Of a stretch of DNA of 64,000 nucleotides, positions 39,235-58,323 are shown piece by piece. The stretch is from Pseudooceanicola pacificus. Its GTDB lineage: Bacteria > Pseudomonadota > Alphaproteobacteria > Rhodobacterales > Rhodobacteraceae. The position numbers were made by a program, and so were the translations under genes. Position 1 is the first letter of the stretch. The number at the start of each line of letters is the position of its first letter. The notes under the pieces are model-generated. The model was not told the DNA's origin. It ran no database searches and saw only the letters and a program-made list of their open reading frames with translations. The DNA lies in NCBI RefSeq assembly GCF_009789075.1, contig NZ_WNXQ01000003.1, positions 248,001-312,000 of the forward strand, in the 5' to 3' direction.

Positions 39235-39309
39235 GCCGCAGTAGCTCAGTGGTAGAGCGCACCCTTGGTAAGGGTGAGGTCGGGAGTTCAATCCTCCCCT
39301 GCGGCACCA
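39235..39309 (+). tRNA. tRNA-Thr (GGT anticodon), CCA encoded
   Basis: 75-nt cloverleaf: acceptor GCCGCAG pairing with CTGCGGC, D arm TAGCTCAGTGGTAGAGC, anticodon stem CACCC/GGGTG around TTGGTAA (GGT), T arm GGGAGTTCAATCCTCCC, discriminator A with CCA encoded. Confidence 0.97.
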
Positions 39310-39409
39310 TCCGATCCCCTCGCATCATTCCGGGCCGCAGCGCCCCAACCCGCCACGCTTTCGCGGCATGCGGGGGCGCGCCGGCCCGGTGCCGGGCGCG
39401 GGGGCCCGT

Positions 39410-39697
39410 TCAGCCGCCGGTCAGGTAGTCCGCCGCCACATAGCCCGTGACCGAGGGCGCCTGCGCCAGCGAGACGCGGCACCAGAGCTGGCCGACCTCG
39501 GTCACGCAGTCGCGGCGCAGCAGCTCTGTCCCGTTCGGCAGCCCCAGAACGATGCGGAAGCCGAGGCCAGGGCCGGCGCGGAGTTTCAGGAATTCGTCGG
39601 ATTCGCTGACCCTGACGGTGGTCTTCTGGCCCCCGACCGCGGCGCAACCGCCCAGGAGGATCAGCAGGAGGATGGCTTTCGATGTCGTTCGCATCAT
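39410..39697 (-). CDS. SH3-domain lipoprotein
   Basis: 95 residues from the ATG at 39697 (a second ATG follows directly). Lipoprotein signal with lipobox LILLGGC; then a single bacterial SH3 module: TVRVSESDEFLKLRAGPGLG, FRIVLGLPNGTELLRRDCVT, LWCRVSLAQAPSVTGYVAAD and YL. Two cysteines (RDC and LWC) could form a disulfide. Such small SH3 lipoproteins bind peptidoglycan or other envelope parts; no specific role is known. The longer frame running back over the amidohydrolase gene is an antisense artefact. Confidence 0.82.
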   Translation of the reverse strand: MMRTTSKAILLLILLGGCAAVGGQKTTVRVSESDEFLKLRAGPGLGFRIVLGLPNGTELLRRDCVTEVGQLWCRVSLAQAPSVTGYVAADYLTGG

Positions 39698-40117
39698 GGT
39701 CCGTACCCGTTTCTTGATTTGCCCGATTCCGCCCGCGGTCGCGCGGCTGCCGCCTGTCGCGGCGCCAAGGGAAACCGCAGGCCGGAACCCGATGGCTACG
39801 CTGCCGGGGCATCGTTTTCCAGCATATTGTGCGTGCGGCCACGGGATGCCCCGTCGCGGTCCGGGGGGCTGCCCGTCCTGCAGGCGGGATGGCCGCACCA
39901 GGGGCAGGGCGGCAGGGGGCGACATCGGGCTGCGCGGCGGGGGAGCCGGGTCAGGACCGCGCAGTCCTGGTGGCCCGGGGCCGGTCCGGAGGGGGGCGGG
40001 CTTGGTCCAATCTGCCGCCTGCGCAGGGCCCCGGGTGCGCCCCGACAGGGCCCATGAGGGTTGAGCGATTGCCCAAAAGTTGGAATACTTGTGTATGGCT
40101 TCGAGGGAAGGGATGCC
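39698..40117. other. 420-bp intergenic region before the accessory block
   Basis: Divergent promoters for the SH3 lipoprotein (minus) and the amidohydrolase (plus) should lie here. GC-rich open frames cross it but have no ribosome-binding site. An AT-richer patch at 40063-40100 immediately precedes the amidohydrolase. No repeat or RNA is recognised. Confidence 0.45.
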
Positions 40118-41224
40118 ATGAGCTATTTTTTCGATCAATTTCATCAAGAACTTTCGCGGCTGGGTGGCGGGCATAATGCGCATCTGCATCTCGACCGGGC
40201 CCACACGCTGGAGGACGGTTATGTCGATGCCGGGCGCGTCCGGGTGCTCGAATCCTCGTCCATTTCGCTGAAGAGCAAGCATGCCCTGCTGGCCACCGTG
40301 CACGAGGGCCGGGCCTTTACCGATGACGACATGCGCGCCCGGCTCGACCGGGTGATACGGGAACTGTTGGCGGCCAACACCCGCTGCGCGGACACGATGG
40401 TCGACGTGACCAACGATTGCGTGCAGCTGAGCGCGCTGGACCGGGTGCAGGACGTCGCCAGGGCCTGGGCCGGGCAGATCACCATCCGCGCCGCCGCCTA
40501 TACGCCGCTGGGATTCCGCCGGGGGGACAATGCGACCTGGGACCTGTTCGAACGCGGTGTGGCCCAGGCGGAATTCATCGGCTCGCTGCCCGAGGCGGAC
40601 GACCTCGACGACTACCCCGACCATATCGGGTTCGAGGAACATTGCGCCCGGATGCTCGACCTGTCCCGGCGCAGCGGCAAGATGCTGCATGTCCACACCG
40701 ACCAGCGCAACGAACCCGGCGAACGCGGCACCGAGCGGCTGATCGAGACCATGCGCCGCGACGGCCCCCTGGCCGACGCCGATGGCGCGCCGCTGGTCTG
40801 GGCGGTGCATGCCGTTTCGCCCTCGACCTATGACGAAGAGCGGTTCCGCGCCTTCGTCGACGGGCTGCTGGAGTGCAACATCGGCATCATCTGCTGCCCC
40901 TCGGCCGCGATCGGGATGCGCCAGCTGCGCCCTGTGCAGACGCCCGCCTACAACTCGATCCCGCGGGTGCTGGAACTGGCCGAGGCCGGCGTGCATCTGC
41001 GGCTGGGGTCCGACAACATCGCCGACATCTGCTCGCCCAGCACCACCGCCGACCTGCGGGACGAGGTGCTCGTCCTGTCGGCGGCGGTGCGCTATTTCCA
41101 GCCGCGCATCCTGGCCAAGCTGGCCGCCGGGGTTCTGCTGGACCAGGCCGACCGGGCCGAGCTGGCCGAGCACCTGGCCGCCAATGGCAAGGAGATCGCA
41201 AAGGTCGTCGGTGCGTCTGTCTAG
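40118..41224 (+). CDS. Amidohydrolase of the cytosine-deaminase-like type
   Basis: 368 residues from the ATG at 40118, chosen for the strong AGGGAAGG six bases upstream; an in-frame ATG at 40061 has none. Amidohydrolase metal ligands are visible: NAHLHLDRA (HxH) near residue 26, LHVHTDQRNEPG, WAVHAVSPSTYDEERF and LGSDNIADICSP (Asp). HLHLDRA plus HTDQ is the pattern of cytosine deaminase, N-isopropylammelide hydrolase and relatives, so a deaminase or cyclic-amide hydrolase is likely. The barrel starts almost at once, without the beta-sandwich strands most relatives have at the N-terminus. The P450 gene overlaps its end by 14 bases, tying the two together. Confidence 0.82.
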   Translation: MSYFFDQFHQELSRLGGGHNAHLHLDRAHTLEDGYVDAGRVRVLESSSISLKSKHALLATVHEGRAFTDDDMRARLDRVIRELLAANTRCADTMVDVTNDCVQLSALDRVQDVARAWAGQITIRAAAYTPLGFRRGDNATWDLFERGVAQAEFIGSLPEADDLDDYPDHIGFEEHCARMLDLSRRSGKMLHVHTDQRNEPGERGTERLIETMRRDGPLADADGAPLVWAVHAVSPSTYDEERFRAFVDGLLECNIGIICCPSAAIGMRQLRPVQTPAYNSIPRVLELAEAGVHLRLGSDNIADICSPSTTADLRDEVLVLSAAVRYFQPRILAKLAAGVLLDQADRAELAEHLAANGKEIAKVVGASV

Positions 41225-42395
41225 GCTGTTCGCCCGGCCCCGCCCCGGGCTGGCCGATCCGCTGGACCTGGGGGCAGAGGCCTTTGCCGCCGACCTCGGG
41301 CCGCTCTGGGACCGGCTGCATGGCGAACGCCCCGTGGTGCGCTGCGCCGATGGGGCGCTGCTGCTGCTGCGCCACGCGGATGTCACTGCGGCCCTGTCGA
41401 ACCGGGCGCTTGGCAATGCGCCGTCGCGGTTTTCGCCGCTGAACGCGCGGAACCGGGGGAAATACCCCGCCGCCGACCTGGCCGCGAATATCCTGCCCTT
41501 TCAGGACGCGCCCGAGCATCTGGCCCTGCGCCCGGTGGCGAGCCGGGCGTTCCACAGCGCCTTTGCCGCGATGGCCGCGACATTGCCCGACCGCGCCGGA
41601 GCGGCGGTGGCGGCAGCGGACTGGCCGGGCGATGCGATTCCTGTGGCGCGCCGCTTTGGCCTGGATGCGATGCGCGCGTTCACCGGCCTGCCCGAAGGGC
41701 CGGATTACAAGCGGCTGACCGGGGCCTTCTTTCACCTTTTCGCGCCCCTCAGCGATGCGCAGGTCTTTGCCGGGGTCAACGCCACGCTGACCGAGTTCCG
41801 CCAGATGATCGCCGCCGCGATGCCCGACGCCGCGCCCGACAGCCTGCTGGGCGCGCTGCGCGACGCGGGTGCCGGGCCGGGGGTTAGTGTCGATCTCGCG
41901 ATCCTCTTTTTCGCCGACGGGGTCGAGAATATCGAGGCGGGCCTGGCCAATGTCATCGCCGCGATGGACAGCCCCGGCGACTGGCTGGACCGGCTGGCGC
42001 CGGGCGATGTCGCGCCCGATGCGCTGGTCGACGAGGGGCTGCGCCTGCGCAGTCCGGCGCAGCTGATCGCCCGTGTGGCGCGCGAGGCGAGCGAGGTGGC
42101 GGGCCAGCCGGTGGCCGAGGGCATGCCGGTCTACCTCGGCCTTGCCGCCGCCAACCGCGATCCCGCGGTCTTTGCCGCGCCGGGGCGGTTCGATCCGGCG
42201 CGCGCCGATCCGCCGCTGCTGGTCTTTGGCCGGGGGCGGCACTCCTGCATCGGGGCCGGGCTGGCCCGCGCGCTGATCGGGGCGCTGCTTGTGGCGGTGG
42301 CCGCCCGGGGGCTGCGGCCGGGGCTGACGGCGGCCGAGATGCGGTATCATCCCCGCTTTGGCCATCACTGGCCGCTCAGCTATCCGATGGGCTGA
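41211..42395 (+). CDS. Cytochrome P450 with atypical I-helix (Asn replacing the conserved Thr)
   Basis: 394 residues from a GTG at 41211. Heme-binding FGRGRHSCIGAG with Cys346; ExxR is E275-G-L-R278 in VDEGLRLRSP; I-helix reads FFADGVENIEAG, keeping the acid (Glu239) but with Asn240 where the oxygen-activating Thr usually stands. The same Thr-to-Asn change is known in P450cin. It is a soluble class I bacterial P450 and needs a ferredoxin partner, none of which lies beside it. The start overlaps the amidohydrolase end by 14 bases, which implies coupled translation. It converges with the A-PCP-TE gene (49 bp between stops). Substrate unknown. Confidence 0.88.
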   Translation: MRLSRLFARPRPGLADPLDLGAEAFAADLGPLWDRLHGERPVVRCADGALLLLRHADVTAALSNRALGNAPSRFSPLNARNRGKYPAADLAANILPFQDAPEHLALRPVASRAFHSAFAAMAATLPDRAGAAVAAADWPGDAIPVARRFGLDAMRAFTGLPEGPDYKRLTGAFFHLFAPLSDAQVFAGVNATLTEFRQMIAAAMPDAAPDSLLGALRDAGAGPGVSVDLAILFFADGVENIEAGLANVIAAMDSPGDWLDRLAPGDVAPDALVDEGLRLRSPAQLIARVAREASEVAGQPVAEGMPVYLGLAAANRDPAVFAAPGRFDPARADPPLLVFGRGRHSCIGAGLARALIGALLVAVAARGLRPGLTAAEMRYHPRFGHHWPLSYPMG

Positions 42396-42444
42396 CAGGC
42401 GCGCCGCCCGGCGTCCACACGGCCTGCCGCGCCCAACAGGCCGG

Positions 42445-45168
42445 TCACGAGATGAAGACGAGCCTGCGCCACGGCCTGCGCCCGGCGTCGGAGGCCCAGA
42501 AGAACCCGTCGACCATCACGTCGACCTCCAGGATCAGCGGCATCCGCACCTCGGGCACCGGAACCTCCAGCGCAAAGGCGCCGTCGCCGGGCAGGGGCAG
42601 GCTGGCCGCGTGGCTCATCCGGTGGTGGAAATCCAGGTTCTTCCAGCGCGCGCCGATCCGCAGCCCGCCCGACGGCCCGGTCAGCCCGCCAAGCCTGCCC
42701 TGCACCGTGACCCGGTCGCCGCCGCGCGCCCGCCGGGGGCCAGAGGCACGGATCCGCAGGCGGGGCGGGGCAGGCGTGCCGATGGGCGGGTCGGCCGGGC
42801 GGGGCGGATCGGCCATCAGCTCGTCCATGCGGGCCAGTATCCCGGTCATGGCCGCGTGCCGGAAAAGGTCGAGATGGGGCACCGGCATGCGCAGCCCCTC
42901 GGCCCCGCGCGGATAGAGCGCGGGCAGCGCGCCTTCCGGCCGGGCGAAGAGGTTGGCGGCGGAAAACGGGCTGGACTGGCTCCAGACGCAGAGGGCGGGC
43001 GCGGCGGTGAAAGGCCTGTCGAAATGCCGGTCGAGCGGGACGAACAAGGCCGGCGGACAGCCCCGGGCCGCCAGCCGTTCCGCCAGGGCCCGGGTCAGCA
43101 CGGCGCCCTGGCAGAACCCGCCGATGGCATAGCCGCCCGGTTCCAGCAGGTCGGCCAGCTCTGCCGCGTAGTGATCGGCCAGCAGCCCGGTGTTGCGGGC
43201 GGATTTCTGCGGCAGCCCGGTGAGGGACTGCACCTCGTAGAGCGGCCGCCCGTGACCTGTGATGTCGAGGATCGTGGCCATTTCCCCCCCGCTCCAGACC
43301 AGCGGCGCGCCCGGGGCGGCCCCGGCCCATCGGCTGATCAGCGAGGTCGGCCCCAGCTTCTGCCCCGGGCTGGCGGCCACACGGCGGCGCATGGCGCGAA
43401 AGATGCGGCGCGGCAGGGGGCCGTGGTAGGTGGTGCCCTGGAACCCTTCGATGGCCTGTTCCAGCCCCTCCAGCGTCGGCGCGCGGTAGAGCAGGTCCAC
43501 CGGCAGCTCTCGCCCCAATCGGGTTTCCAGCGCCGTGACAAAGGCGGTGGCGGACAGGCTGTCGCCGCCCATGTCAAAGAAATCGTCCGCCGGCCCGGGC
43601 CGGTCCGATTGCAGCACATCCGCCCAGATGGCGGCGATCCGGGCGCCGAGGGCCGAAAGCGGCTGCCGGTTGCCCGGCCGCCCGCCCGTCAGGGCCGCCG
43701 CCGCCGCGCGCCGGTCGACCTTGCCGCTGCGCAGGCGGGGCATCTCGTCCAGCACGGCGATCCGATGCGGGATCTTGTAGGGGGCCAGCTGTTCGGCCAG
43801 CGCGGCGCGCGCGGCCTGGGGGTCGAACCCCGGATCATCGGCGACCACCACCGCGGCCGGCACCTCGCCCAGGGTCGGATGGGGCTGGGCAAAGACCACC
43901 ACGTCGCGCAGGCCCGGCAGCGCGGTCAGGGCGCGTTCGACCTCGGTCGGGGCGATCTTTTCGCCGCCCCGGTTGATGATCTCCTTCAACCGCCCCTCAA
44001 GGAACAGGAAGCCGTCGCCGTCGAGATGGCCCAGATCCCCGGTGCGCAGCCATCGCCCGTGGAAATGCGCCGCGCGCGGGGCGTTCTCATAGCCCTCGCT
44101 CACCTGTGGCCCCGCGATGCAGATTTCGCCCGATGCGCCGGGCGGCAGCGGGTTGCCCAGGGGGTCCATCACCTGCAGCTCGGGGCCTGCCACCCGGCCC
44201 ACCGATCCGGCCCGCCCCCGGTCCGGCGGAGCGGGATTCGAGGCGATCTGCCCCGCCGCCTCGGTCATGCCGTACATCTGCACCACCGGGGCCGGGGCGA
44301 AGTGCTGTTCGAAGCGGGATTGCAGCTCGGGCGCCAGGTCGGCGGAGACCGAGCGGACGAACCGCAGCCGGGCGCCCATCTCGGCGGCCTGCTCGGGCGG
44401 GATCCCGGCGATCAACGCATGCATCATCGTCGGCACCGCCTGCAGCCAGGTCGCCCCCTGCTGCAGCACCGCCCGCGCCACGCTGTCGGCGGACATCGGA
44501 TGGGCCAGGCAGACCGACCCGCCCGCTTTGAGCGGCGCAAGGCAGAGGTCGACCAGCGCGCCGATATGGAACATCGGCAGCATGTGCACGGCCCGGTCCG
44601 AGGGGGTGAGGCGCAGGTGTGTCGCGATAGTGCCGGCCGAAAGGTCCAGCGCCTCCAGCCGCAGCGGCACGCGCTTGGGCTGGCTGGTGGTGCCCGAGGT
44701 GAAGAGCACCAGCCCCGGGCCGACATGGGCGGGCGGCAGTGCGCCCCCCGTGGCGATGGAGCCTGCCAGCCGGTCGATCCGGTCCAGCCCTCCCGGCTCT
44801 GCCGTCGCGGTGGCGGGGGCGAGGCCCTGCACCCCGCGCCCGGCGCCCGGCACGGTCAGGATCACATCGGCCCCGGCGCCGTCCAGCGTGGCGCGCAGTT
44901 CGGCATCCGTCAGCTCTGGCGACAGCGGCATGACCTGCGCCTGCCGCATCAGCGCCAGCAGCAGGACCAGCGTGCCGGGACAGTCGGGCAGCAGGGTGAC
45001 GATCCGCAGGCCGGCCAGACCCTGCGCGCCGATGGCAGCGCCAATGGCGTCGAGCGCCGACGACAGCGCCCCGTGGCTGACCTGCGCGCCGGTAACATCC
45101 ACCAGTGCGGCGGCGTCCGGCGCAACGGCTGGCGCGGAGATCAGGGACAACGGGTCGATTGCCGTCAT
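42445..45168 (-). CDS. Adenylation-carrier-thioesterase (A-PCP-TE) megaprotein with Cys thioesterase
   Basis: 907 residues. Residues 1-490: acyl-adenylating domain (LFTSGTTSQPK, YGMTEAAGQIASNP, WLRTGDLGHLDGDG, LKEIINRGGEKIAPTE, Lys483 in LRSGKVDRRA). The MLPMFHIGALVDLCLAPLKA and YGMTEAAGQIASNP blocks resemble oxalate/acyl-CoA ligases more than amino-acid-specific NRPS domains. Residues about 505-575: carrier domain with phosphopantetheine Ser537 (DMGGDSLSA). Residues about 620-785: type I thioesterase fold with GGFCQGA, Cys686 in place of Ser, and His765 in PVPHLDLF. Residues 800-907: a strand-rich unrecognised domain ending FFWASDAGRRPWRRL. It likely loads a carboxylic acid, holds it as a thioester and releases or condenses it. 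The cupin regulator gene lies 129 bp upstream on the same strand. Confidence 0.85.
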   Translation of the reverse strand: MTAIDPLSLISAPAVAPDAAALVDVTGAQVSHGALSSALDAIGAAIGAQGLAGLRIVTLLPDCPGTLVLLLALMRQAQVMPLSPELTDAELRATLDGAGADVILTVPGAGRGVQGLAPATATAEPGGLDRIDRLAGSIATGGALPPAHVGPGLVLFTSGTTSQPKRVPLRLEALDLSAGTIATHLRLTPSDRAVHMLPMFHIGALVDLCLAPLKAGGSVCLAHPMSADSVARAVLQQGATWLQAVPTMMHALIAGIPPEQAAEMGARLRFVRSVSADLAPELQSRFEQHFAPAPVVQMYGMTEAAGQIASNPAPPDRGRAGSVGRVAGPELQVMDPLGNPLPPGASGEICIAGPQVSEGYENAPRAAHFHGRWLRTGDLGHLDGDGFLFLEGRLKEIINRGGEKIAPTEVERALTALPGLRDVVVFAQPHPTLGEVPAAVVVADDPGFDPQAARAALAEQLAPYKIPHRIAVLDEMPRLRSGKVDRRAAAAALTGGRPGNRQPLSALGARIAAIWADVLQSDRPGPADDFFDMGGDSLSATAFVTALETRLGRELPVDLLYRAPTLEGLEQAIEGFQGTTYHGPLPRRIFRAMRRRVAASPGQKLGPTSLISRWAGAAPGAPLVWSGGEMATILDITGHGRPLYEVQSLTGLPQKSARNTGLLADHYAAELADLLEPGGYAIGGFCQGAVLTRALAERLAARGCPPALFVPLDRHFDRPFTAAPALCVWSQSSPFSAANLFARPEGALPALYPRGAEGLRMPVPHLDLFRHAAMTGILARMDELMADPPRPADPPIGTPAPPRLRIRASGPRRARGGDRVTVQGRLGGLTGPSGGLRIGARWKNLDFHHRMSHAASLPLPGDGAFALEVPVPEVRMPLILEVDVMVDGFFWASDAGRRPWRRLVFIS

Positions 45169-45297
45169 GGTCCGGCTCTGTCAGGTGGCTCTGTCCTGGC
45201 GAGCTTAGCCGCTCGGGGCCGCGCGGAATACCCTTTCAGGGACGCAAACCGCCGCCATTTCCCACGGAACCGGCCCCGGGGCTTGGCCCGCCGGGAT

Positions 45298-45903
45298 TCA
45301 GCGCCGGCGCGGAGCGGACTTTTCCGGGCCAAGCCTCAGGCTGTTCGCCGAGGAGGTGGAAATCGCCAGCACCTGCGCATGATCGTCGCTTTCCGAGATG
45401 ACGATATGTTTCATCCCGCTGTCGAAATAGGTGCTTTCGCCCTTGCCCAGCGAATAGGGTCGGTAATCGGCGAGGTAGACGGTCACGCGCCCGGCGAGGA
45501 CATAGATGAACTCGTCCCCCTCGTGCGAAATCCAGTCGTCGATCGGTGGCACGTCATGCTGGACGATCTCGGCCACGATCGGGTGCATGGCCTTGTCCAG
45601 CAGGTCGGCGGCGTGGATGTCAAAGATGTGATTCGTGGTCTCGTAGCGGATCGCCTCGCCGTCGCGGGTGATGGCGCGCCGCGCCGTGCTGCTGGTGCCC
45701 GAGGCCGAGGCCGAGCCCAGGAACTGCAACAGGCTGACAAAGCTGCGCACGCTGGGCGTGACCTTGCAGTTCTCGATCTTCGACAGGGTCGGCACCGAAA
45801 TCCCTGTGGATTGGCTGACATCCTGCAGGGTCAGGCCCTTCGCGCCGCGAAACGCCAGCAGTGCGGGTCCAATGGTTTCCGGTTGCAGGTCGTCTGAATT
45901 CAT
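45298..45903 (-). CDS. XRE-family regulator with C-terminal cupin domain
   Basis: 201 residues from the ATG at 45903 (a GTG at 45909 adds two). N-terminal helix-turn-helix: LTLQDVSQSTGISVPTLSKI, then ENCKVTPSVRSFVSLL. C-terminal cupin_2 domain: WISHEGDEFIYVLAGRVTVY, LGKGESTYFDSGMKHIVISE. Proteins of this build sense a small ligand in the cupin and repress or activate adjacent metabolic genes. It is immediately upstream of the A-PCP-TE gene, same strand, and is the obvious candidate controller of the 40-45 kb block. It diverges from the TbpB-like lipoprotein gene. Confidence 0.88.
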   Translation of the reverse strand: MNSDDLQPETIGPALLAFRGAKGLTLQDVSQSTGISVPTLSKIENCKVTPSVRSFVSLLQFLGSASASGTSSTARRAITRDGEAIRYETTNHIFDIHAADLLDKAMHPIVAEIVQHDVPPIDDWISHEGDEFIYVLAGRVTVYLADYRPYSLGKGESTYFDSGMKHIVISESDDHAQVLAISTSSANSLRLGPEKSAPRRR

Positions 45904-46180
45904 AGCCACGAAGCCATTACGTCGTTGTCCTTCGCCGGCGCATATGTCGTTCCACGGGTAAACGCCTCGTTACATGATCCACTCGACCGGGTTCGCGACC
46001 ATACGGTGCAGTTTGTCGTCGGATTTGCAAGCGGCAAGAGGGCGACGACGCGTTTCACGCTTTATCAAGGCGGCGCGGGTACAGTCATTCTGGCAACCAG
46101 GCAAAGGTTCGGCATCACGAATGCGGGTTAGGGCGACAGTCGGAACAGGGTGGCGGGCGTTCGCATCGCGGGCGATTCGG

Positions 46181-47113
46181 ATGGCCTGGGCGCGTATCGC
46201 GGCGCTGTGGCTGACGGCGCTGTGCCTCGCGGGCTGTGATCTGGGGGTGCCGACCGGCGCCGCGCCGCACCCGCTCGCCCCGCCGCACCCGCCCGCCCCG
46301 CCGGTCGGGGCTGATCCTTCTGCATTCACCGGCTTTGCGACGCTGCCGTCCACGGGCGCGGTCGTGCTGCAGGGGCAGGGGATCGCGGCGCCCTATGTGC
46401 TGGACGCCAATGGCGCGGTGACGGTCGCGGCCATCCCGCCCTCGGGCGCGGCGCGATTGATCCTCGACCGGGGTGGCGGGCAGACGCGGGCCATGACGCT
46501 GGAAACCGGCGGGCTCAGATCGGTGATCGACACGCGCAATGGCGGGCAGATGCTGCGCCAGGGCGGGATGGTGCGGGCCGCCGATGCCTCGGGCACCTCG
46601 CTGGCGTTGCTCGCGGACGAGGGGGCAAATGGCTACGGCTACCAGACACATGGCGTCTGGGTGACGGGCTATGGCACCGGGTCGGGGCAGGTCGCCGTCG
46701 CAAGCGTCGGGGCTCTTTCACCGGCGGATGCGGCCCGGGCGGTCCTGCCCCTGGGCGGCACGGCCAGCTATGCGGGCCAGTCCACCGGCGTCGCGCGGGA
46801 CGGGGCGGGCACGCCCTATTTCACCCGCTCCACCGTCACGGTCAGCACGGATTTCCGCAGCCTTGGCCTGACCAGCAGCGGCACCCTGGCCACCAATGCC
46901 AATAGCCTTGCCGAGGCGCCGATGCCGCAGCTGGATTTTGTCGCCTCGGCGCAGGTCGCAGGCAGCGGTTTCTCGGGGACGGTGGCGGGGGCCGGGATGA
47001 CCGGCGCGCTCAACGGTGCGTTTTACGGCGGCATGGCCGAGGAACTGGGCGGCGTCTTCAGCGCCAGCGGGGCGGGGATGGCATATGCCGGGGCCTTTGG
47101 CGCCCGCAGGTGA
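46181..47113 (+). CDS. TbpB/HphA-like surface lipoprotein (transferrin-binding-protein-like)
   Basis: 310 residues from the ATG at 46181, giving a compact lipoprotein signal with lipobox CLAGC; in-frame ATG at 46121 is an alternative. A Pro/His-rich spacer (APHPLAPPHPPAPPVG) follows the lipidated Cys. The C-terminal ~90 residues carry the eight-strand barrel signature of the TbpB family: LDFVASAQVAGSGFSGTVAG, MTGALNGAFYGGMAEELGGV, FSASGAGMAYAGAFGARR. Relatives are surface-exposed, Slam-exported lipoproteins that bind host proteins or haemophores. No TonB receptor or Slam gene is next to it, so its ligand is unknown. It stands alone between the cupin regulator and the CYP153 gene. Confidence 0.75.
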   Translation: MAWARIAALWLTALCLAGCDLGVPTGAAPHPLAPPHPPAPPVGADPSAFTGFATLPSTGAVVLQGQGIAAPYVLDANGAVTVAAIPPSGAARLILDRGGGQTRAMTLETGGLRSVIDTRNGGQMLRQGGMVRAADASGTSLALLADEGANGYGYQTHGVWVTGYGTGSGQVAVASVGALSPADAARAVLPLGGTASYAGQSTGVARDGAGTPYFTRSTVTVSTDFRSLGLTSSGTLATNANSLAEAPMPQLDFVASAQVAGSGFSGTVAGAGMTGALNGAFYGGMAEELGGVFSASGAGMAYAGAFGARR

Positions 47114-47281
47114 GGGAGGGGGCAGGCGCGACCGGGTTCATCAGGCGGCAGGCCGCACAGGCGGCGACGGGCGCGACCGGCGGGCACCGCGCTTGGGCAG
47201 GCGGGGCAAGGTCCTGCCGCGATGCCTGTCACGCGGCGCGCGATGGCCGGGATGCCCGGGCCGATCGCCCGGGCCGGCCCC

Positions 47282-48556
47282 TCAATGGCGCGCGGGGATG
47301 CGCACCGGCAGGGTTTCGTAGCCCTTGACGAAAACCGAATGCGTGCGCGTCGGCTCCTCCATCAGCTCGATGGTGGGGAAGCGTTTCAGGATTTCCTCCC
47401 ACAGGATGCGCAGCTGAAGCTCTGCCAGCCGGTTGCCAAGGCAGCGATGGATGCCAAAGCCGAAGGACAGATGCCCGCGCGGCCGGTCCCGGTCGATCAC
47501 ATAGTCGTTCGGCCGCTCGAACCGCTTTTCGTCACGATTGCCCGAGACGTACCACATCGCCACGCGGTCACCCGCGCGGATCGTCTGGCCGTGCATCTCG
47601 ATATCCTCGGTCGCCACGCGCGACATATGCGCCAGCGGGGTCTGCCAGCGGATCGTCTCGGACACCATCGAGGGGATCAGCGACTGATCGGCCTTGAGCT
47701 TGGCATATTCGCCGGGGAAGTGGTTCAGCGCATAGACCGAACCGGACAGCGTGTTGCGCGTGGTGTCGTTCCCGCCCACGATCAGCAGGATGACATTGCC
47801 GTGGAAAAGCTCGCGCGGCATGTCCCTGGTCGAGGGGCCCTGCGCCAGCATCGTCACCAGGTCGAACCCGCCTTCGCCATGGGCCCGGGCGTCCCAGAGC
47901 TCGTTGAAGGCGGCAAAGCATTCCTGCATCTCGGCATGCTTCTGCTCCCAGCTGGTCACCGGGCCAAATCCGGGCGTGTTGGTGATCACGTCGGACCAGT
48001 GGGTCAGCTTGCGGCGATGCTCGAAGGGGAAATCGAACAGGGTCGCAAGGGTCATCGCGGTGAATTCCTTGGACACCAGGTCGACCCAGTCGAAGGTCTC
48101 GCCGATCGGCAGGCTGTCGAGGATCATCCCCGCGCGTTCGCGCAGCAGGGGCGTCAGCTTCTCCAGCACCGGCGGGGCGACGCCGGGGCTGACGGATTTG
48201 CGCTGCGGGCCATGATCGGGCGGGTCCATGGTGATGAAACCCGCGCCGTCGGTCCCCTGCTTCTTGGCGAATTCCTTGGATTCCGGCGTGCGCAGCGTGA
48301 TCCCCCGGGCCGAGGAAAAGACGCGGTGGTTGGAATCCACCGCCACGATGTCCTCGTACCGGGTGATCGACCAATGCGGCTCGTAGGGGCCGCTGTCGCA
48401 GTAATGCACCGGCGCCTCGGCACGCAGGCGGTCGAACCAGGGCCACATGGTATCGTCGGCAAAGCGGTCCGCCTGCGCCACGGTGAAGCGGTCCAGCGGG
48501 GTGGCTTGGGCCGCCTCGCGGCTGGCCGCCAGCGGGTCGATGTGTTGATCTTTCAT
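47282..48556 (-). CDS. Cytochrome P450 of the CYP153 type (terminal alkane/fatty-acid hydroxylase)
   Basis: 424 residues. CYP153 hallmarks: FDRLRAEAPVHYCDSGPYEP, GFITMDPPDHGPQRKSVSPG, I-helix LIVGGNDTTRNTLSG with the usual Asp-Thr-Thr, ExxR in SETIRWQTPLAHMSR, MWYVSGNRDEKRF, and heme motif HLSFGFGIHRCLGNRLAELQ. CYP153 enzymes hydroxylate the terminal carbon of medium-chain alkanes or fatty acids. They need a [2Fe-2S] ferredoxin and reductase, usually encoded next to them, but absent here. It is divergent from an HxlR regulator across 300 bp, and an acyl-CoA synthetase gene lies just beyond, suggesting oxidation then activation of a fatty chain. Confidence 0.9.
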   Translation of the reverse strand: MKDQHIDPLAASREAAQATPLDRFTVAQADRFADDTMWPWFDRLRAEAPVHYCDSGPYEPHWSITRYEDIVAVDSNHRVFSSARGITLRTPESKEFAKKQGTDGAGFITMDPPDHGPQRKSVSPGVAPPVLEKLTPLLRERAGMILDSLPIGETFDWVDLVSKEFTAMTLATLFDFPFEHRRKLTHWSDVITNTPGFGPVTSWEQKHAEMQECFAAFNELWDARAHGEGGFDLVTMLAQGPSTRDMPRELFHGNVILLIVGGNDTTRNTLSGSVYALNHFPGEYAKLKADQSLIPSMVSETIRWQTPLAHMSRVATEDIEMHGQTIRAGDRVAMWYVSGNRDEKRFERPNDYVIDRDRPRGHLSFGFGIHRCLGNRLAELQLRILWEEILKRFPTIELMEEPTRTHSVFVKGYETLPVRIPARH

Positions 48557-52099: not shown

Positions 52100-53338
52100 T
52101 CAAGTGGATGCCCCGGCTTTCGCGATGTTCAACGCCATGTTCACCGCCAGCGCCATATCCTGCACGCTGACCCATTCCAGCGGCCCGTGGATCTCTTGCA
52201 TCCCGGTAAAGACATTTGGCGTGGGCACCCCCATCTCGGTCAGGCGCGAGCCGTCGGTGCCGCCGCGGATCGCGACGGAGTTCGGCTCCAGCCCCAGCTC
52301 GCGGCAGGCCGAGCGGGCGAGCTCCACCGGGGTCATGTCGTCTTCCAGCCAGTAGCGCATGTTGCGGTACTGGGGCGCGATCGTGCAGTCGATCCGCGCC
52401 TGCGGCTCGCCCGCCGCCACGACGGCGCAGACCCGTTCCAGCAGCGCGCCCTTGGCCGCCAGCCCGTCGCGTTCGAAATCGCGCAGGATGAAACGGATCT
52501 CGGCCTCGGCGGCGCTGCCGCGCATGTCGGTGACATGGATGAAGCCCTCGCGTCCCTCGGTGGTTTCTGGGGTCAAGGTCTGCTGGGGCAGGGTGTCGAT
52601 CACCTTGGCGGCCAGATGCAGGGCGTTGACCAGCTTGCCCTTGGCCCAGCCCGGATGGGCCGCGACGCCGGTGATCCTGACCACCGCGCCATCGGCCGAG
52701 AAGCTTTCGTATTCGATTTCGCCCGGTTTCGAACCGTCGAAGGTATAGGCGAAGTCGGCGCCGAAATCCTTGGGCAGGCGGGGGTCGACGCCGCGGCCGA
52801 TTTCCTCGTCCGGGGTAAAGGCGATGCGGATCGGCCCGTGCGGGATGTCGGGATTGGCCAGCAGGTGGCGGGCCGCCGTCATGATGATCGCCACGCCCGC
52901 CTTGTCGTCGGCGCCCAGCAGGGTGGTGCCGCTGGCGGTGATGATGTCCTCGCCCAGCTTCTCGCCCAGATAGGGCGAGGTCTCGGGCGACAGTCTCAGC
53001 TCGGGCGCGTCGGCAAAGGTGATGTCGCCGCCGTTGTAGCTGCGGTGCACCACCGGCTTGACCCCGGTGGCATTGTAGGCGGGCGCTGTGTCGACATGGG
53101 CCAGCATGCCGATGGTCGGGCCCTCGGCGGTGCCGGGCAGGGTGGCCAGCACGACGCCATAGTCGGTGATCCGCACGTCCGAGGCGCCGATCTCGGTCAG
53201 TTCGCTTTCCAGCATCCGCAGTAGGTCATACTGGATCTCGGTGCTGGGCGAGGTCGGGCTGTCGGGATCGCTCTGCGTGTCGACGGCGCAATAGCGCACC
53301 AGCCGCTGTTCCAATTCGGTGTCGAAATCGCTGCGCAT
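52100..53338 (-). CDS. pepT: Peptidase T (tripeptide aminopeptidase)
   Basis: 412 residues of M20B peptidase. Metal ligands: GMLAHVDTAPAYNATG (His, Asp), TLLGADDKAGVAIIMTAARH (bridging Asp), FTPDEEIGRGVD (catalytic Glu), with later ligands in YTFDGSKPGEIEYESF and the C-terminal PNVFTGMQEIHGPLEWV. It removes N-terminal residues from tripeptides in the cytoplasm. It starts 148 bp from the dctM stop, with a strong hairpin between. Confidence 0.95.
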   Translation of the reverse strand: MRSDFDTELEQRLVRYCAVDTQSDPDSPTSPSTEIQYDLLRMLESELTEIGASDVRITDYGVVLATLPGTAEGPTIGMLAHVDTAPAYNATGVKPVVHRSYNGGDITFADAPELRLSPETSPYLGEKLGEDIITASGTTLLGADDKAGVAIIMTAARHLLANPDIPHGPIRIAFTPDEEIGRGVDPRLPKDFGADFAYTFDGSKPGEIEYESFSADGAVVRITGVAAHPGWAKGKLVNALHLAAKVIDTLPQQTLTPETTEGREGFIHVTDMRGSAAEAEIRFILRDFERDGLAAKGALLERVCAVVAAGEPQARIDCTIAPQYRNMRYWLEDDMTPVELARSACRELGLEPNSVAIRGGTDGSRLTEMGVPTPNVFTGMQEIHGPLEWVSVQDMALAVNMALNIAKAGAST

Positions 53339-53434
53339 CGGGGCCTCCGTTCGGTTTGACCGGATCTGTCTGCCGCGCGGGCCGGGCTGTCAAGAGCCGG
53401 GCAGGGGCCGGGCCGGGCAGGGGCCCTGACATGA

Positions 53435-53460
53435 ACACGGCGCCCCGGGGGGCGCCGTGT
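53435..53460 (-). terminator. Perfect palindromic hairpin after dctM
   Basis: ACACGGCGCCCC-GG-GGGGCGCCGTGT, a perfect 12-bp inverted repeat 26 bases past the dctM stop and upstream of pepT. There is no T run on the minus strand, so it may act mainly as an mRNA 3'-end stabiliser. Confidence 0.7.
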
Positions 53461-53486
53461 CAGAACTCATCGGGTGTGCGGCCCCG

Positions 53487-54797
53487 TCAGTCCATCATCA
53501 GCGAGGGCAGCCAGAGCGACAGGCCCTGATTGTAGATCAACGCCCACATGATGAAGAATTCGCAGACCAGGAACCAGCCGACACCCTTGAAGATCGTGGC
53601 CAGGGGCACGGCGTCGCCCACCACGTTCTTCACGATGTACACGTTTAGCCCGACAGGGGGCGTAAGCAGGCCGATCTCGATCATCTTGACCACGATCACG
53701 CCGATCCAGATCAGGTTCACGTCCAGCGCCTCGAAGGCGGGCAGGAAAACCGGCAGCGTCAGCAGCATCACGCCCAGCGGGTCCAGGAACATGCCGAGGA
53801 TCAGGTAGATCACGGCCAGGGCGATCACCAGTTCGATTTCGCCCAGGTTCATGTCCGACACCAGGTTGGCGATATAGGTCGGCACCCCGGCCAGCGCCAG
53901 GAACCGGGTCAGCAGCACCGCGCCGATGGCCAGGAAGAACAGCGACGAGGTGGTCCGCAGCGCGTCCATCACCGATTCCTTGATCACCTCGAAGGTGGCG
54001 CGCCCCTGTGCCAGCCCGATGACCAGGGCGAAGAGGGCGCCTAGCGCGCCGGCCTCGGTCGGGGTGGCGATACCGGCGTAGATCGACCCGATGACACCAA
54101 GGACCAGCAGCGGCAGGGGCCAGACGTCGCGCAGCACAATCATCCGGTCGCGCCAGGTCACGGTCATCTGCACCCGGGGCGCCAGCTCGGGCCAGATCGT
54201 GCAGCGGCCGACGATCATGATCGTATAGGCGCCCGCGGTCAGAAGCCCGGGGATCAGGCCCGCCATCAGCAGGCGGCCCACCGATTGTTCGGTGAAGAAG
54301 CCGTAGATGACGAAGGCGATCGAGGGCGGGATCAGCGCGCCCAGCGTGCCCGACGCGGCCACCGTGCCCGTGGCCAGCGACTTGTCATAGCCGTATTTCA
54401 GCATCTCGGGGATGGCGAGGCGGCCAACCGCGGCCGAGGTCGCGACCGACGACCCCGAGGCCGCGGCAAAGCCCGCCGCGGTGAAGTTCGTCGCCACCGC
54501 CAGCCCGCCCGGCAATCCGTTCAGCCAGACCCGCGCCGCGGCGTAGAGGCTGGAGGTCAGCCCGGTCTTGTAGGCGATGGCGCCCATCAGCAGGAACATC
54601 GGAATGGCCGACAGTTCCCAGCTGGAGGCGAATTCATGCGGCAGCGAACCGACCATCGCGAAGGCCGCGCGCTCGTTGCGCACGATGATGATCCCGACCA
54701 GCGAGACCGAACCGAGCGCAAAGGCGATTGGCACCCGCGCGGCGAGCAGCACGAGGATCGCACCGACGCCCATGAAGCCGATAGTAAGAGAGTCCAT
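53487..54797 (-). CDS. dctM: TRAP transporter large permease subunit DctM
   Basis: 436 residues from the ATG at 54797. About twelve hydrophobic segments; conserved DctM blocks are IPMFLLMGAIAYKTGLTSSL, AASGSSVATSAAVGRLAIPE, AASGTLGALIPPSIAFVIYG, TPTEAGALGALFALV and VGLNVYIVKNVVGDAVPLAT. With DctQ it forms the Na+-driven channel that takes substrate from the periplasmic binding protein. It follows dctQ by 67 bp in a dctP-dctQ-dctM run; the extra binding-protein gene lies further upstream. Confidence 0.93.
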   Translation of the reverse strand: MDSLTIGFMGVGAILVLLAARVPIAFALGSVSLVGIIIVRNERAAFAMVGSLPHEFASSWELSAIPMFLLMGAIAYKTGLTSSLYAAARVWLNGLPGGLAVATNFTAAGFAAASGSSVATSAAVGRLAIPEMLKYGYDKSLATGTVAASGTLGALIPPSIAFVIYGFFTEQSVGRLLMAGLIPGLLTAGAYTIMIVGRCTIWPELAPRVQMTVTWRDRMIVLRDVWPLPLLVLGVIGSIYAGIATPTEAGALGALFALVIGLAQGRATFEVIKESVMDALRTTSSLFFLAIGAVLLTRFLALAGVPTYIANLVSDMNLGEIELVIALAVIYLILGMFLDPLGVMLLTLPVFLPAFEALDVNLIWIGVIVVKMIEIGLLTPPVGLNVYIVKNVVGDAVPLATIFKGVGWFLVCEFFIMWALIYNQGLSLWLPSLMMD

Positions 54798-54864
54798 CTT
54801 GTTTTTCCCTGTCCGTCGGGCGCTCTGGCGAGCGGACCCGCGACTTGTCAGTCTGGTTGTCGGG

Positions 54865-55494
54865 TCAGTCGGCCGAGCCGCCGCCCCTGCCCACGCCGAT
54901 GGCCCCGTCATCCGATTTCGGGGATCCCATGGCACGGTCCGCATCCGCGACAACCGTCTCGATCGCCGATTTCAGGCTGCGGTCCGGCAGGATGCGCTCG
55001 CCCTTCGACATGAAGACGAAGTTGTCGATGGCGTAGAGCGTCAGGTAGACCGTCGCGAGGAAGGTCCCCAGCGGGAAGAACCAGCGCGCGCCCCAGACCG
55101 GGATGTCGAAGGTGGCGGTTTCCCAGACTTCGCCGATCTCGGTCTGATGCAGGGCTTCCTCGAAGCCCTGAAAGCACAGGATCCCGGCATAGACGGCGCC
55201 CAGGACACAGCCGAACACCTTGACCCCGGCCAGCTTGCGCGGGGCGAGGTGCTGGGTGAACAGTTCGACCTCAAGGTGTTCGTGATCGCGGGTCACGGCC
55301 CCCAGGGGCAGCCAGACCAGGGCGACCATGTAATAGGCCGACACCAGCTCCAGGGTAGAGGGGATGGGTTTGTGAAGGATGTATTTCGCAGCAACGTCCA
55401 GCGAGACCTGGGTCATCATCAGCACGATGATGAGCCCCCCGATCATGGCGATGAAGCCGGAAATGCGACTGGCGACGGATTCGATCGCTCGCAT
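54865..55494 (-). CDS. dctQ: TRAP transporter small permease subunit DctQ
   Basis: 209 residues, four membrane helices (ISGFIAMIGGLIIVLMMTQV first), with the family block STLELVSAYYMVALVWLPLG and DHEHLEVELFTQHLAPRKLA. The C-terminus is acidic/Gly-rich (PKSDDGAIGVGRGGGSAD) and longer than usual. It pairs with DctM. A strong hairpin in the 70-bp gap to dctP would let the binding protein be made in excess. Confidence 0.9.
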   Translation of the reverse strand: MRAIESVASRISGFIAMIGGLIIVLMMTQVSLDVAAKYILHKPIPSTLELVSAYYMVALVWLPLGAVTRDHEHLEVELFTQHLAPRKLAGVKVFGCVLGAVYAGILCFQGFEEALHQTEIGEVWETATFDIPVWGARWFFPLGTFLATVYLTLYAIDNFVFMSKGERILPDRSLKSAIETVVADADRAMGSPKSDDGAIGVGRGGGSAD

Positions 55495-55522
55495 GGTCTT
55501 TGTCCTGTTCGATGAAGGGACC

Positions 55523-55555
55523 GGGGGCCGGCCTCGCCTGCGCGGACCGGCCCCC
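55523..55555 (-). promoter_or_regulatory. Hairpin between dctP and dctQ
   Basis: GGGGGCCGG and CCGGCCCCC form a perfect 9-bp stem with a 15-base loop, ten bases after the dctP stop. Without a T run it is more likely a partial terminator or processing/stabilising stem that raises binding-protein mRNA over permease mRNA. Confidence 0.65.
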
Positions 55556-55564
55556 CTGTAAGCA

Positions 55565-56668
55565 TCAGATCTTCGAGAAGATCTCGTCGTTCAGAGCCTT
55601 TTCATAGGCTGCCTTGTCGTTGCCCACCTTGGCCACGATGCCCGTCCACTTGTCGACCAGGCCCATGAAAGTGGTCACGACCTCTTCGGCGTCGTCGATG
55701 CCGTCGGCCTTGCCGGCCTCGATGGTTTCCTGAACGGTCAGGCTCTGCTGTTCCTTCCATGCGTCCTTGAACGCCTGGTCGGATTCCTCGACCGTGCCGC
55801 CGTTTGCGGCCAGCCATTCCATCGCCGTCTCGTTGTCGCTGACATAGGCCCACATGATCTCGGCCACGTTATGCGCCATGTTGTCCCGGAACGCGGCCCG
55901 CTCTTCGTCGGTCAGGTCGTTCCAGACGTCCAGGTTGACGGCAAAGTTCATCGTGCCGAAATACGACCCCACCGCGTTGGACCAGACGCCCTTGGCAAAG
56001 TCCTTGAGGTTGTAGGTGTTCAGCCAGGCGGTCGCGCCGACGACGCAGTCGATCTGGCCGCGCTGCATGGCCTCGTACATTTCGGCCGTGGTGATCGAAA
56101 CGGGCGATGCCCCGATGGCCAGCATCGACCGGCCCACGCCCGAGGTGGCGCGGATCTTGCGGCCCTGCAGATCGGCCAGGCCCTTGATCGGTTCCTTGCA
56201 GATCACGTGATAGGCGCCGGTGGCCGACCAGGACAGGCCGATCACGTTGTTCCTTTCGCGCTCGGCGATACAGTCGGGGCAATGCAGCAGCTGCATCTCG
56301 TTCATGGCGGCGGCCATGACCTTGGGGTCATCCCCAATGGCGATCATCGACGAAAGCAGGGACGACACCGGCAGCGAGGATTTCACGTAGATGTCGACAA
56401 CGCTGGCGGCATCGAGGATCCCGCTTTTCACGTTGCCCAGCAGTTCCTTGGGCCCGCCCATGGCGCCACCGGTGAAGGTCTCGAAGGTGAGCTCGCCCTT
56501 GGTCTGCTCGGTGATGCGTTTCATCGTCGGAACGACGCCGTTCACATAGGTCGTGTGGGTCGGCGAGGTGTAGCTGCCATAGGTCAGTTCGATGGCCGAG
56601 GCCCCGGTGGCGGCAAATGCAGTGGTTGTCGCAATGGCAAGTGCCAGCGGCGTGATGCGAGACTTCAT
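55565..56668 (-). CDS. dctP: TRAP transporter substrate-binding protein DctP (copy 1)
   Basis: 367 residues from the ATG at 56668 (GGGAGG site). Sec signal peptide (ITPLALAIATTTAFAATGAS), then the DctP fold: ELTYGSYTSPTHTTYVNGVV, FTGGAMGGPKELLGNVKSGI, KIRATSGVGRSMLAIGASPV (Arg of the carboxylate clamp), and TTAEMYEAMQRGQIDCVVGA. A CPDC motif sits in QLLHCPDCIAERERN, likely a periplasmic disulfide. It binds an organic acid or similar ligand. Copy 2 upstream has the same length and shares most motifs, so the two arose by duplication. It leads dctQ and dctM. Confidence 0.92.
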   Translation of the reverse strand: MKSRITPLALAIATTTAFAATGASAIELTYGSYTSPTHTTYVNGVVPTMKRITEQTKGELTFETFTGGAMGGPKELLGNVKSGILDAASVVDIYVKSSLPVSSLLSSMIAIGDDPKVMAAAMNEMQLLHCPDCIAERERNNVIGLSWSATGAYHVICKEPIKGLADLQGRKIRATSGVGRSMLAIGASPVSITTAEMYEAMQRGQIDCVVGATAWLNTYNLKDFAKGVWSNAVGSYFGTMNFAVNLDVWNDLTDEERAAFRDNMAHNVAEIMWAYVSDNETAMEWLAANGGTVEESDQAFKDAWKEQQSLTVQETIEAGKADGIDDAEEVVTTFMGLVDKWTGIVAKVGNDKAAYEKALNDEIFSKI

Positions 56669-56772
56669 CAGTTTCCTCCCTTGGAAGTCGTATGTGGCGA
56701 GAGCCCTTTGGCCGCTTCTGTCGGCGGCGCGGTGGCTCCAAGGCTCCATCTCCTTGAAACCTTAACGCCGAG

Positions 56773-56800
56773 ACTATGATTTGACCTGCCGGTAAGCAAG
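56773..56800 (-). promoter_or_regulatory. Candidate promoter of dctP copy 1
   Basis: On the minus strand CTTGCT, 16 bases, CATAGT, ending about 105 bp before the start codon. The other dctP has CTTGCC-N16-CATAGC at nearly the same distance (58088-58115). The match to the CTTGAC/CTATAT alphaproteobacterial consensus is partial. Confidence 0.35.
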
Positions 56801-56885
56801 AGATTTCATGAAGCATCCCATGCCTGTGATTCCGGCCTGGCAGGCCAGTGCGGACGGGCGGCAGCGCCCGCCCGCCGGCGCCCTG

Positions 56886-57989
56886 TCAGAGCTTGTCGAA
56901 GATCTCGCGATCCAGCGCCGCCTTGAACGCTTCCTTGTCGTTGCCGATCTCGGCCACGATATCGGTCCATTTGTCGACCAGCCCGTGGAAGGTGTCGATC
57001 AGCTCTTCGGCATTGTCGATGCCCTGGTCCTTGCCGGACTGGATGGTGAAGGCGTATTCTTCCTTCCGGGCGGTTTCGACCGCGTCCACAAAGGCCTGAT
57101 CGGCATGCAGAACCTCGCCGCCAAGCGCCTTCAGATCGCGGATGCCGGTCTCGTGGTCGTCGTCATAGGCAAACAGGGTATCGACCACGGATTGCGAGAT
57201 ATTGCTGCGGATCGCGGCCCGCTGGCTGTCGCTCAGATCGCCCCAGACATCCAGGTTGACCGCAAACAGCATGGTCCCGAAATACGACCCAAGGCTGTCC
57301 TCGACGATGTAGCGGGAAAAGTCCTTGAGGTTGTAGGTGGTCAGCCAGGCCGCGGCCCCGGCCACGCAGTCGACCTGTCCGCGCTGCATCGCCTCGTACA
57401 TCTCGGCGGTGGTGATGGACACGGCCGTGGCCCCCATCGACTGCATTGCCCGGCCCATGCCGGATGTCGCGCGGATCTTCAGGCCCTTGAGCTCGTCCAG
57501 CGTGTTGATCGGCTCCTTGCAGATCAGGTGATAGGTCCCTGTCGCCGTCCAGCCCAGGCCGATCACATTGGCCTTGGTGCGGTCTTCCTCGCAGCTGGGA
57601 CAGTGCAGCAGCTGCATCTCGTTCATCGCCGCCGACATCACCTTGGGGTTCTTGCCCAGGATCAGCATCGAGGACATCAGCGCCGAATGCGGCAGCTGCG
57701 CCTTGACGTAGATGTCCACGACGCTGGTGGTGTCGATGATCCCGCTGCCGGCATTGCCCAGCAGTTCCTTAGGCCCGCCCATCGAACCGCCGGTAAAGGC
57801 CTCGAAGGTGATTTCCCCGTTGGTGTCGCGCGTGATGCGGTCCAGCAGCGGCCCGGTCCCGGTCCGGAATGTCGTTTGGGTGGGTGAGGTATAGGTGCCG
57901 TAGGTCAGTTCCAGCGCCCGGGATGGCCCGGCCGCAACACCCAATAGCGAAAGGGCAGCGCCCAAGAGCGCGGCTGTATGGTATTTCAT
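56886..57989 (-). CDS. TRAP transporter substrate-binding protein DctP (copy 2)
   Basis: 367 residues from the ATG at 57989 (AAGGAGG site). Sec signal peptide (HTAALLGAALSLLGVAAGPS), then the same DctP fold as copy 1: ELTYGTYTSPTQTTFRTG, FTGGSMGGPKELLGNAGSGI, QLLHCPSCEEDRTKANVIGL with the same Cys pair, KIRATSGMGRAMQSMGATAV and TTAEMYEAMQRGQVDCVAGA. Residues that differ near the ligand site (RSMLAIGAS versus RAMQSMGAT) suggest a different but related ligand. It is separated from copy 1 by 217 bp with its own candidate promoter and may feed the same DctQM permease. Confidence 0.92.
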   Translation of the reverse strand: MKYHTAALLGAALSLLGVAAGPSRALELTYGTYTSPTQTTFRTGTGPLLDRITRDTNGEITFEAFTGGSMGGPKELLGNAGSGIIDTTSVVDIYVKAQLPHSALMSSMLILGKNPKVMSAAMNEMQLLHCPSCEEDRTKANVIGLGWTATGTYHLICKEPINTLDELKGLKIRATSGMGRAMQSMGATAVSITTAEMYEAMQRGQVDCVAGAAAWLTTYNLKDFSRYIVEDSLGSYFGTMLFAVNLDVWGDLSDSQRAAIRSNISQSVVDTLFAYDDDHETGIRDLKALGGEVLHADQAFVDAVETARKEEYAFTIQSGKDQGIDNAEELIDTFHGLVDKWTDIVAEIGNDKEAFKAALDREIFDKL

Positions 57990-58323
57990 CTTGTCCTCCT
58001 TCGGCTCCCTCCCGGAGCCGACATTGCAGCGCAAAAGGCGCCGCAACTCCCTGAAAACTCCGCTTTGTGCGGATGTTGTCATGAAAGGCTATGACGGCCC
58101 CCGGAGTCTGGCAAGCGATTCCACGGAGAAAGGGTATGCCATTTTACATACGGGTCGGAGCGCCCCCGCGCGGCCCTGCTGCACACAGGATGACAAAATG
58201 GGTGGTGCAGGCATTTCCCTTCTGGCAAGGTGGATTTCAGGGCATTAAGGTTTTCCTTGATTGATCCATAATATGGCCGGAATTGGCCGCTACCCCTGTC
58301 GCGTGAGCAGAGCGACCGAGTGA
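57990..58323. other. 334-bp divergent intergenic region
   Basis: It separates dctP copy 2 (minus) from the H-type lectin-like gene (plus). A candidate dctP promoter is at 58088-58115 (minus). The AT-rich patch 58245-58275 with CCATAATATGG may hold the plus-strand promoter. An open frame of ~55 codons from 58081 lacks a ribosome-binding site and is not called. Confidence 0.45.

Follow-up and report, generated by a model that had tools for sequence, protein, structure and literature searches.

A recurrent gene set for a cytosine deaminase-fold hydrolase, a P450 and an A-PCP-TE protein: a candidate NRPS-like cassette in Pseudooceanicola pacificus

A hydrolase, a P450, a carrier-protein-bearing synthetase and a regulator are encoded side by side in Pseudooceanicola pacificus, which raises the question of whether these genes form one small-molecule pathway and which of them are integral to it. 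In this work, we analyzed the locus within a window, that is, the whole stretch of 64,000 nucleotides comprising positions 248001-312000 of contig 16 of the host's own genome (G000, an assembly with a completeness of 66.85%). The features of the locus are as follows:

40118-41224, plus strand: hydrolase of the cytosine deaminase fold (AMH), 368 residues, ATG start at 40118
40703-40705, plus strand: Gln196 of AMH, replacing Glu217 of Escherichia coli cytosine deaminase in 36 of 36 aligned sequences
41211-42395, plus strand: P450, 394 residues, GTG start at 41211, with P450 BioI as best solved relative
41928-41930, plus strand: Asn240 of the P450, at the usual I-helix Thr position, Asn in 23 of 23 aligned sequences
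42246-42248, plus strand: Cys346 of the P450, heme ligand in FGRGRHSCIG
42445-45168, minus strand: APT, 907 residues, with adenylation, peptidyl-carrier and thioesterase domains and a C-terminal beta-sandwich, Ig-like domain
43111-43113, minus strand: Cys686 of APT, predicted thioesterase (TE) nucleophile in GGFCQG
43558-43560, minus strand: Ser537 of APT, predicted phosphopantetheine site in the carrier-protein motif GGDSL
45298-45903, minus strand: XRE-cupin regulator from an ATG start, or to 45909 from a GTG start

The first-pass annotation had described four genes, a 14-base overlap between AMH and the P450 and a 49-bp gap between the convergent stops of the P450 and APT; the genes, the overlap (41211-41224) and the gap (42396-42444) were all recovered at the same positions. 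The XRE-cupin gene is encoded on the strand of APT and 129 bp upstream of it, AMH has an alternative in-frame TTG start at 40061 that would add 19 residues, and the genes of AMH, the P450 and APT together span 5.1 kb. Scanning returned one promoter-like site (0.5 in shuffled sequences) and three terminator-like sites (3.0 in shuffled sequences). A TbpB-like beta-barrel gene (45974-47113, PF01298) adjoins the XRE-cupin gene in the same insert. An M20 peptidase gene with a TRAP transporter (DctM, DctQ and two DctP proteins; 52100-58082) is also present in the window, and likely represents a separate uptake operon.

Recurrence of the genes in other genomes

AMH was found at 1e-40 in four of 295 genomes of the family (G000, G198, G273 and G310), and a search for the window-type P450 at 1e-38 recovered exactly these four. 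The two genes lie less than 4 kb apart in each of these genomes, with no gene between them in three (the window, G198 and G273), while APT adjoins them in three of the four (the window, G198 and G310). Gene order and strands in G198 are the same as in the window, and in G310 the order is P450-APT-AMH, all on one strand. AMH, the P450 and an MFS gene form a contiguous run in G273, whose APT relative is found next to an M20 peptidase gene at a distance of 2.85 Mb on the same contig. Furthermore, G005 and G008, both of the same genus as the window, have a convergent P450/APT pair without AMH; the convergent P450/APT spacing is +49, -14, -20 and -20 bp in four genomes. Conversely, AMH and APT lie 3 bp apart on the Gemmobacter aquarius plasmid NZ_CP028919, where a different P450 is found about 6.6 kb from AMH, and AMH adjoins an A-PCP protein in metagenome-assembled genomes (MAGs) of Latescibacterota, Deltaproteobacteria and Marinosulfonomonas (loci L011, L040 and L076). 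The window-type P450 was not detected at 1e-25 in these three MAGs, nor in the Gemmobacter sequence searched, namely the plasmid, which indicates that the P450 is not always needed. Thus, any two of the three genes can be found together in the absence of the third next to them, a pattern that is hard to explain unless all three have a common purpose.

AMH is rare, being present in one of 22 genomes of the genus, one of 385 in a draw from the class and one of 398 in a draw from the phylum, in every case the window's own genome. For a wider view, we matched contigs of equal length, as a proxy for the same contig, among the best 120, 120 and 51 proteins of the three families. The listed relatives have 15 such contigs in common for APT/AMH, 13 for AMH/P450 and seven for APT/P450, the chance expectation obtained with jittered lengths being 0.46 for APT/AMH and 0.36 for AMH/P450. 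Two of the AMH/P450 contigs are shorter than 3.5 kb, so that both genes must be neighbors there, provided that contigs of equal length are identical. Pairwise distances co-vary as well (Mantel r of 0.86, 0.87 and 0.88; n = 16, 21 and 10), in a set that includes G273 although APT is not adjacent there; shared descent of the hosts may contribute to this correlation. Taken together, these comparisons give good support to the view that AMH, the P450 and APT belong together.

The distribution of APT is harder to delimit. A scan of genome contigs with the APT alignment gave at least 594 matches, mostly relatives of acyl- or oxalate-CoA ligases, of which 80 loci were kept; it is not a census, and AMH lies near the APT match in three of the 80. 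A search with the TE-Ig part found five of the 295 family genomes, G178 and G091 with weak matches (E of about 1e-11), and missed G310, in which the end domain differs. Among 60 near relatives, nine match APT at 1e-60, and only G000, G005 and G008 do so over its length.

The XRE-cupin gene behaves differently. Its product matches Cupin_2 (49.6 bits) and HTH_3 (33.1 bits) in Pfam, and no relative was detected by tblastn at 1e-4 in 11 fetched loci, that is, nine with two or three core genes within the fetched stretch, some of them short contigs, plus L114 and L116. Since none of the other copies examined had it nearby, we dropped the four-gene set and define the core as three genes. The initial proposal that all four form one set, to be checked by their co-location in other genomes, is therefore well supported for AMH, the P450 and APT, which recur close together and with matched divergence, and unsupported for the XRE-cupin gene, of which the loci searched contain no relative; the latter probably encodes a local regulator acquired together with this copy. 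Among the annotated genes, no redox-partner, acid-supply or export gene is common to the loci. The MFS gene of G273, the aminotransferase gene of G198, the ABC transporter and arginase-family genes of G310 and the sulfotransferase gene of Gemmobacter were each considered as pathway parts and rejected, as they are not shared among the annotated genes.

A variable slot beside tRNA-Thr

The position of the genes in the chromosome was compared with that in ten of the 20 relatives from the same genus in which MurA was matched, i.e. all seven with a second P450 nearby and three others. The two edges of the region are:

39235-39309, plus strand: tRNA-Thr (ggt), left edge of the variable slot
47282-48556, minus strand: SolI-like P450 (546 bits with the SolI model, cut-off 850), right edge of the slot in seven same-genus genomes

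MurA lies beside tRNA-Thr in all ten loci, and MurA, tRNA-Thr, the SolI-like P450 and an acyl-CoA synthetase make up the genus backbone. The distance from tRNA-Thr to the SolI-like P450 is 8.0 kb in the window versus 0.14-3.0 kb in the seven genomes, whose slots hold nothing (G002), an ABC transporter set (three genomes) or other genes (three genomes), and none of them AMH, the window-type P450 or APT. The cargo differs between species, a flavoprotein gene plus a glyoxalase-like gene being a further example. The slot of the window holds the three-gene cassette, the XRE-cupin gene and the TbpB-like gene. The cassette was likely gained in this slot; no stretch of tRNA-Thr of 10 bases or more recurs in 39310-47300 as a tRNA-fragment boundary would, and neither an integrase nor a long boundary repeat was found at the slot edges. 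The SolI-like P450 was also considered as a fifth member and rejected, because it belongs to the genus backbone in seven genomes that lack the cassette.

The corresponding tRNA-Thr/MurA slot of G091, from another genus, carries a different carrier-protein cluster without AMH (L116:9584-18690), with genes for a radical SAM protein, an AMP-binding protein, a P450, a free PCP, TylF- and CmcI-type methyltransferases and a free thioesterase, the last showing kinship to the TE-Ig region of APT (27% over 299 residues). The slot has therefore received biosynthetic cargo on more than one occasion; in this cluster, too, the TE-Ig family accompanies A, carrier and P450 genes.

Predicted properties of the three proteins

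AMH has no Pfam match at 0.001, and its NCBIfam matches are all below cut-off, the best being PRK06886, a "hypothetical protein" model (143 bits, cut-off 340), followed by cytosine deaminase models. The family comprises at least 779 database proteins at 1e-20, and most of the best 120 are nameless or "hypothetical". Compared with the cytosine deaminase CodA, AMH is shorter at both ends, lacking counterparts of roughly the N-terminal 50 residues of CodA and of its last residues. The metal ligands and base of CodA (His61, His63, His214, His246 and Asp313) are kept in all 36 aligned sequences, and the motif H-x-H-x-D-Q occurs in 119 of the 120 listed relatives, whereas the CodA substrate contacts Gln156, Glu217, Asp314 and Trp319 are replaced by Pro, Gln, Asn and Cys, again in 36 of 36. 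AtzC likewise has Asn at the Asp314 position but His at that of Glu217. With all four contact residues changed, cytosine-type deamination by AMH appears unlikely; the activity suggested in the first-pass annotation, amide hydrolysis or deamination, is partly supported, the metal site being kept.

The P450 (Pfam p450, 48.8 bits) has both the heme Cys loop and the ExxR motif (EGLR). It had been called atypical, which is borne out by its I helix, where Asn replaces the usual Thr: DG-x-EN is common to the 23 aligned sequences, while BioI and others have Thr there, and the listed relatives show DG[VIL]EN in 48 of 51 and DGVEH in two, with the motif not found in one. When the family profile was compared with solved P450s, P450BioI was the best match (238 bits) with a lead of 27 bits over the next (212 bits). 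BioI is among the P450s that oxidize carrier-bound substrates, according to PMC5238595, and in view of this resemblance the window P450 likely acts on a carrier-bound substrate. As with BioI (CYP107H1) and other carrier-protein P450s, its gene is linked to that of a carrier protein; it differs from BioI in the Asn and in that the carrier is part of an A-PCP-TE protein.

APT matches AMP-binding (190.8 bits), AMP-binding_C (53.1 bits) and PP-binding (57.5 bits) in Pfam. The Thioesterase match (24.4 bits) is below the cut-off of 26.4, the TE assignment being supported by the predicted structure and the alignment with EntF. The protein is thus A-PCP-TE in one chain, as had been proposed; it has no condensation domain, and the Ig-like domain at the C-terminus is an addition. 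The predicted model (pLDDT 88, pTM 0.81) matches oxalyl-CoA synthetases, EntF and AB3403, and the A domain is best matched by FadD7 and oxalate-CoA ligase models. At position 235, the amino-acid Asp position of A domains, the alignment places Ile202 in APT, Asp in EntF and Asn in EntE; the motif was found in 75 of the 120 listed APT relatives, with Ile in 48 and Val in 27. This residue makes an alpha-amino acid an unlikely substrate for the A domain of APT.

Cys686, Asp713 and His765 of APT line up with the catalytic triad of EntF. The Cys is invariant in the 30 aligned sequences; among 93 relatives of at least 800 residues with a carrier motif (25 shorter ones and two without the motif being left out), the nucleophile is Cys in 82 and Ser in two, and nine lack the motif. 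APT relatives end in an Ig-like domain, and the listed relative P0102 bears PF16158, presumably N_BRCA1_IG. The AMH-linked A-PCP proteins L040:1910-4945, L076:28-2517 and L096:10614-13352 have a different, apparently Ser-type (GTSxG) end hydrolase, and two kinds of release domain, Cys-TE and apparently Ser-type, thus share one AMH partner. A PF13469 domain, which we take to be a sulfotransferase, occurs in the A-PCP relatives P0094, P0116 and P0119 (listed with L100:5128-6153), and the Gemmobacter locus has a sulfotransferase gene beside a P450.

A proposed pathway and its alternatives

We propose, with a probability of about 0.6, that AMH, the P450 and APT are one NRPS-like cassette for the production of a single small molecule: a carboxylic acid tethered to the carrier would be oxidized by the P450 and released via the predicted TE Cys; that the three genes yield a single product is what we infer from their association. 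In this pathway, Ser537 would be loaded by the A domain with an acid that has no alpha-amine, the BioI-like P450 would oxidize the acyl group while it is tethered to the carrier, and Cys686 would take up the acyl group and then hydrolyze or cyclize it off. The loading and release steps are drawn from family chemistry and intact residues, and the oxidation from the resemblance to BioI. In what is the least certain step, AMH may hydrolyze, or in reverse close, a C-N bond in the precursor or product.

Other readings give the TE domain a more specific task. The Cys-TE might close a beta-lactone or similar small ring after beta-hydroxylation by the P450, with AMH opening or maturing the ring. The prevalence of the Cys nucleophile among the long relatives speaks for it, and the Cys-TEs of ObiF (obafluorin) and SulM (sulfazecin) make a beta-lactone and a beta-lactam, respectively (PMC6668435, PMC11298585). 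APT shares with these two and with AB3403 a Cys nucleophile with Asp and His; however, the same papers place the triad Asp at position II in ObiF and SulM and at position I in AB3403, an uncharacterized Cys-TE, and Asp713 of APT is found, by alignment only, at the EntF-like position I, in a single A-PCP-TE protein. We hold this ring closure to be unlikely. Slightly more doubtful is a synthetase of the RalA or fungal quinone type, which would build a furanone or quinone from two aromatic alpha-keto acids, the product then being tailored by the P450 and AMH. APT has in common with such non-reducing NRPS-like A-T-TE enzymes (quinone and furanone synthetases, RalA) the A, carrier and TE domains, the lack of a condensation domain and the lack of the amino-acid Asp; enzymes of this type use aromatic alpha-keto acids (PMC9047271), and the gene directly upstream of APT in G198 encodes a class-V aminotransferase. 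On the other hand, APT differs from them in its fatty-acid/oxalate CoA ligase-type A domain, closest to the FadD7 and oxalate-CoA ligase models, its Cys-TE, its extra Ig-like domain and its AMH and P450 partners, and no aminotransferase is found among the annotated genes of the other loci.

A reading without any biosynthesis, in which AMH and the P450 degrade an imported compound and APT is a neighbor by coincidence, would fit G273, where the AMH-P450 pair stands without APT, adjoins the MFS gene and lies near molybdopterin/2Fe-2S dehydrogenase and phenylacetate-type genes. The AMH+APT and P450+APT pairs that recur without the third gene argue against it, and there is no evident use for a carrier or a thioesterase domain in catabolism of this kind, so that we regard this reading as very improbable.

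Notwithstanding these alternatives, the gene set is real, recurrent and undescribed in the literature searched, a variant of NRPS-like A-T-TE clusters built from known families. No description of AMH, the P450 and APT together was found in titles and the beginnings of abstracts among the matches listed, subscription journals being mostly outside this search. It is tempting to speculate, quite tentatively, that the genes represent a new type of minimal, portable pathway: in several phyla, a cytosine deaminase fold stripped of its cytosine contacts may have come to serve A-PCP-(Cys)TE synthetases as their dedicated partner, some lineages having added an Asn-type P450 that acts on the carrier-bound acyl group, and the product may be a very small signal or antibiotic of a new class.

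The comparisons turn an isolated group of unusual genes into a set whose membership and recurrence are defined and which can therefore be searched for and tested, and its three genes in 5.1 kb are small enough for expression of the whole set in a laboratory strain. The proposed pathway would give a first role both to the AMH family, with its 779 or more proteins, and to the family of Cys-thioesterases with an Ig-like end domain.
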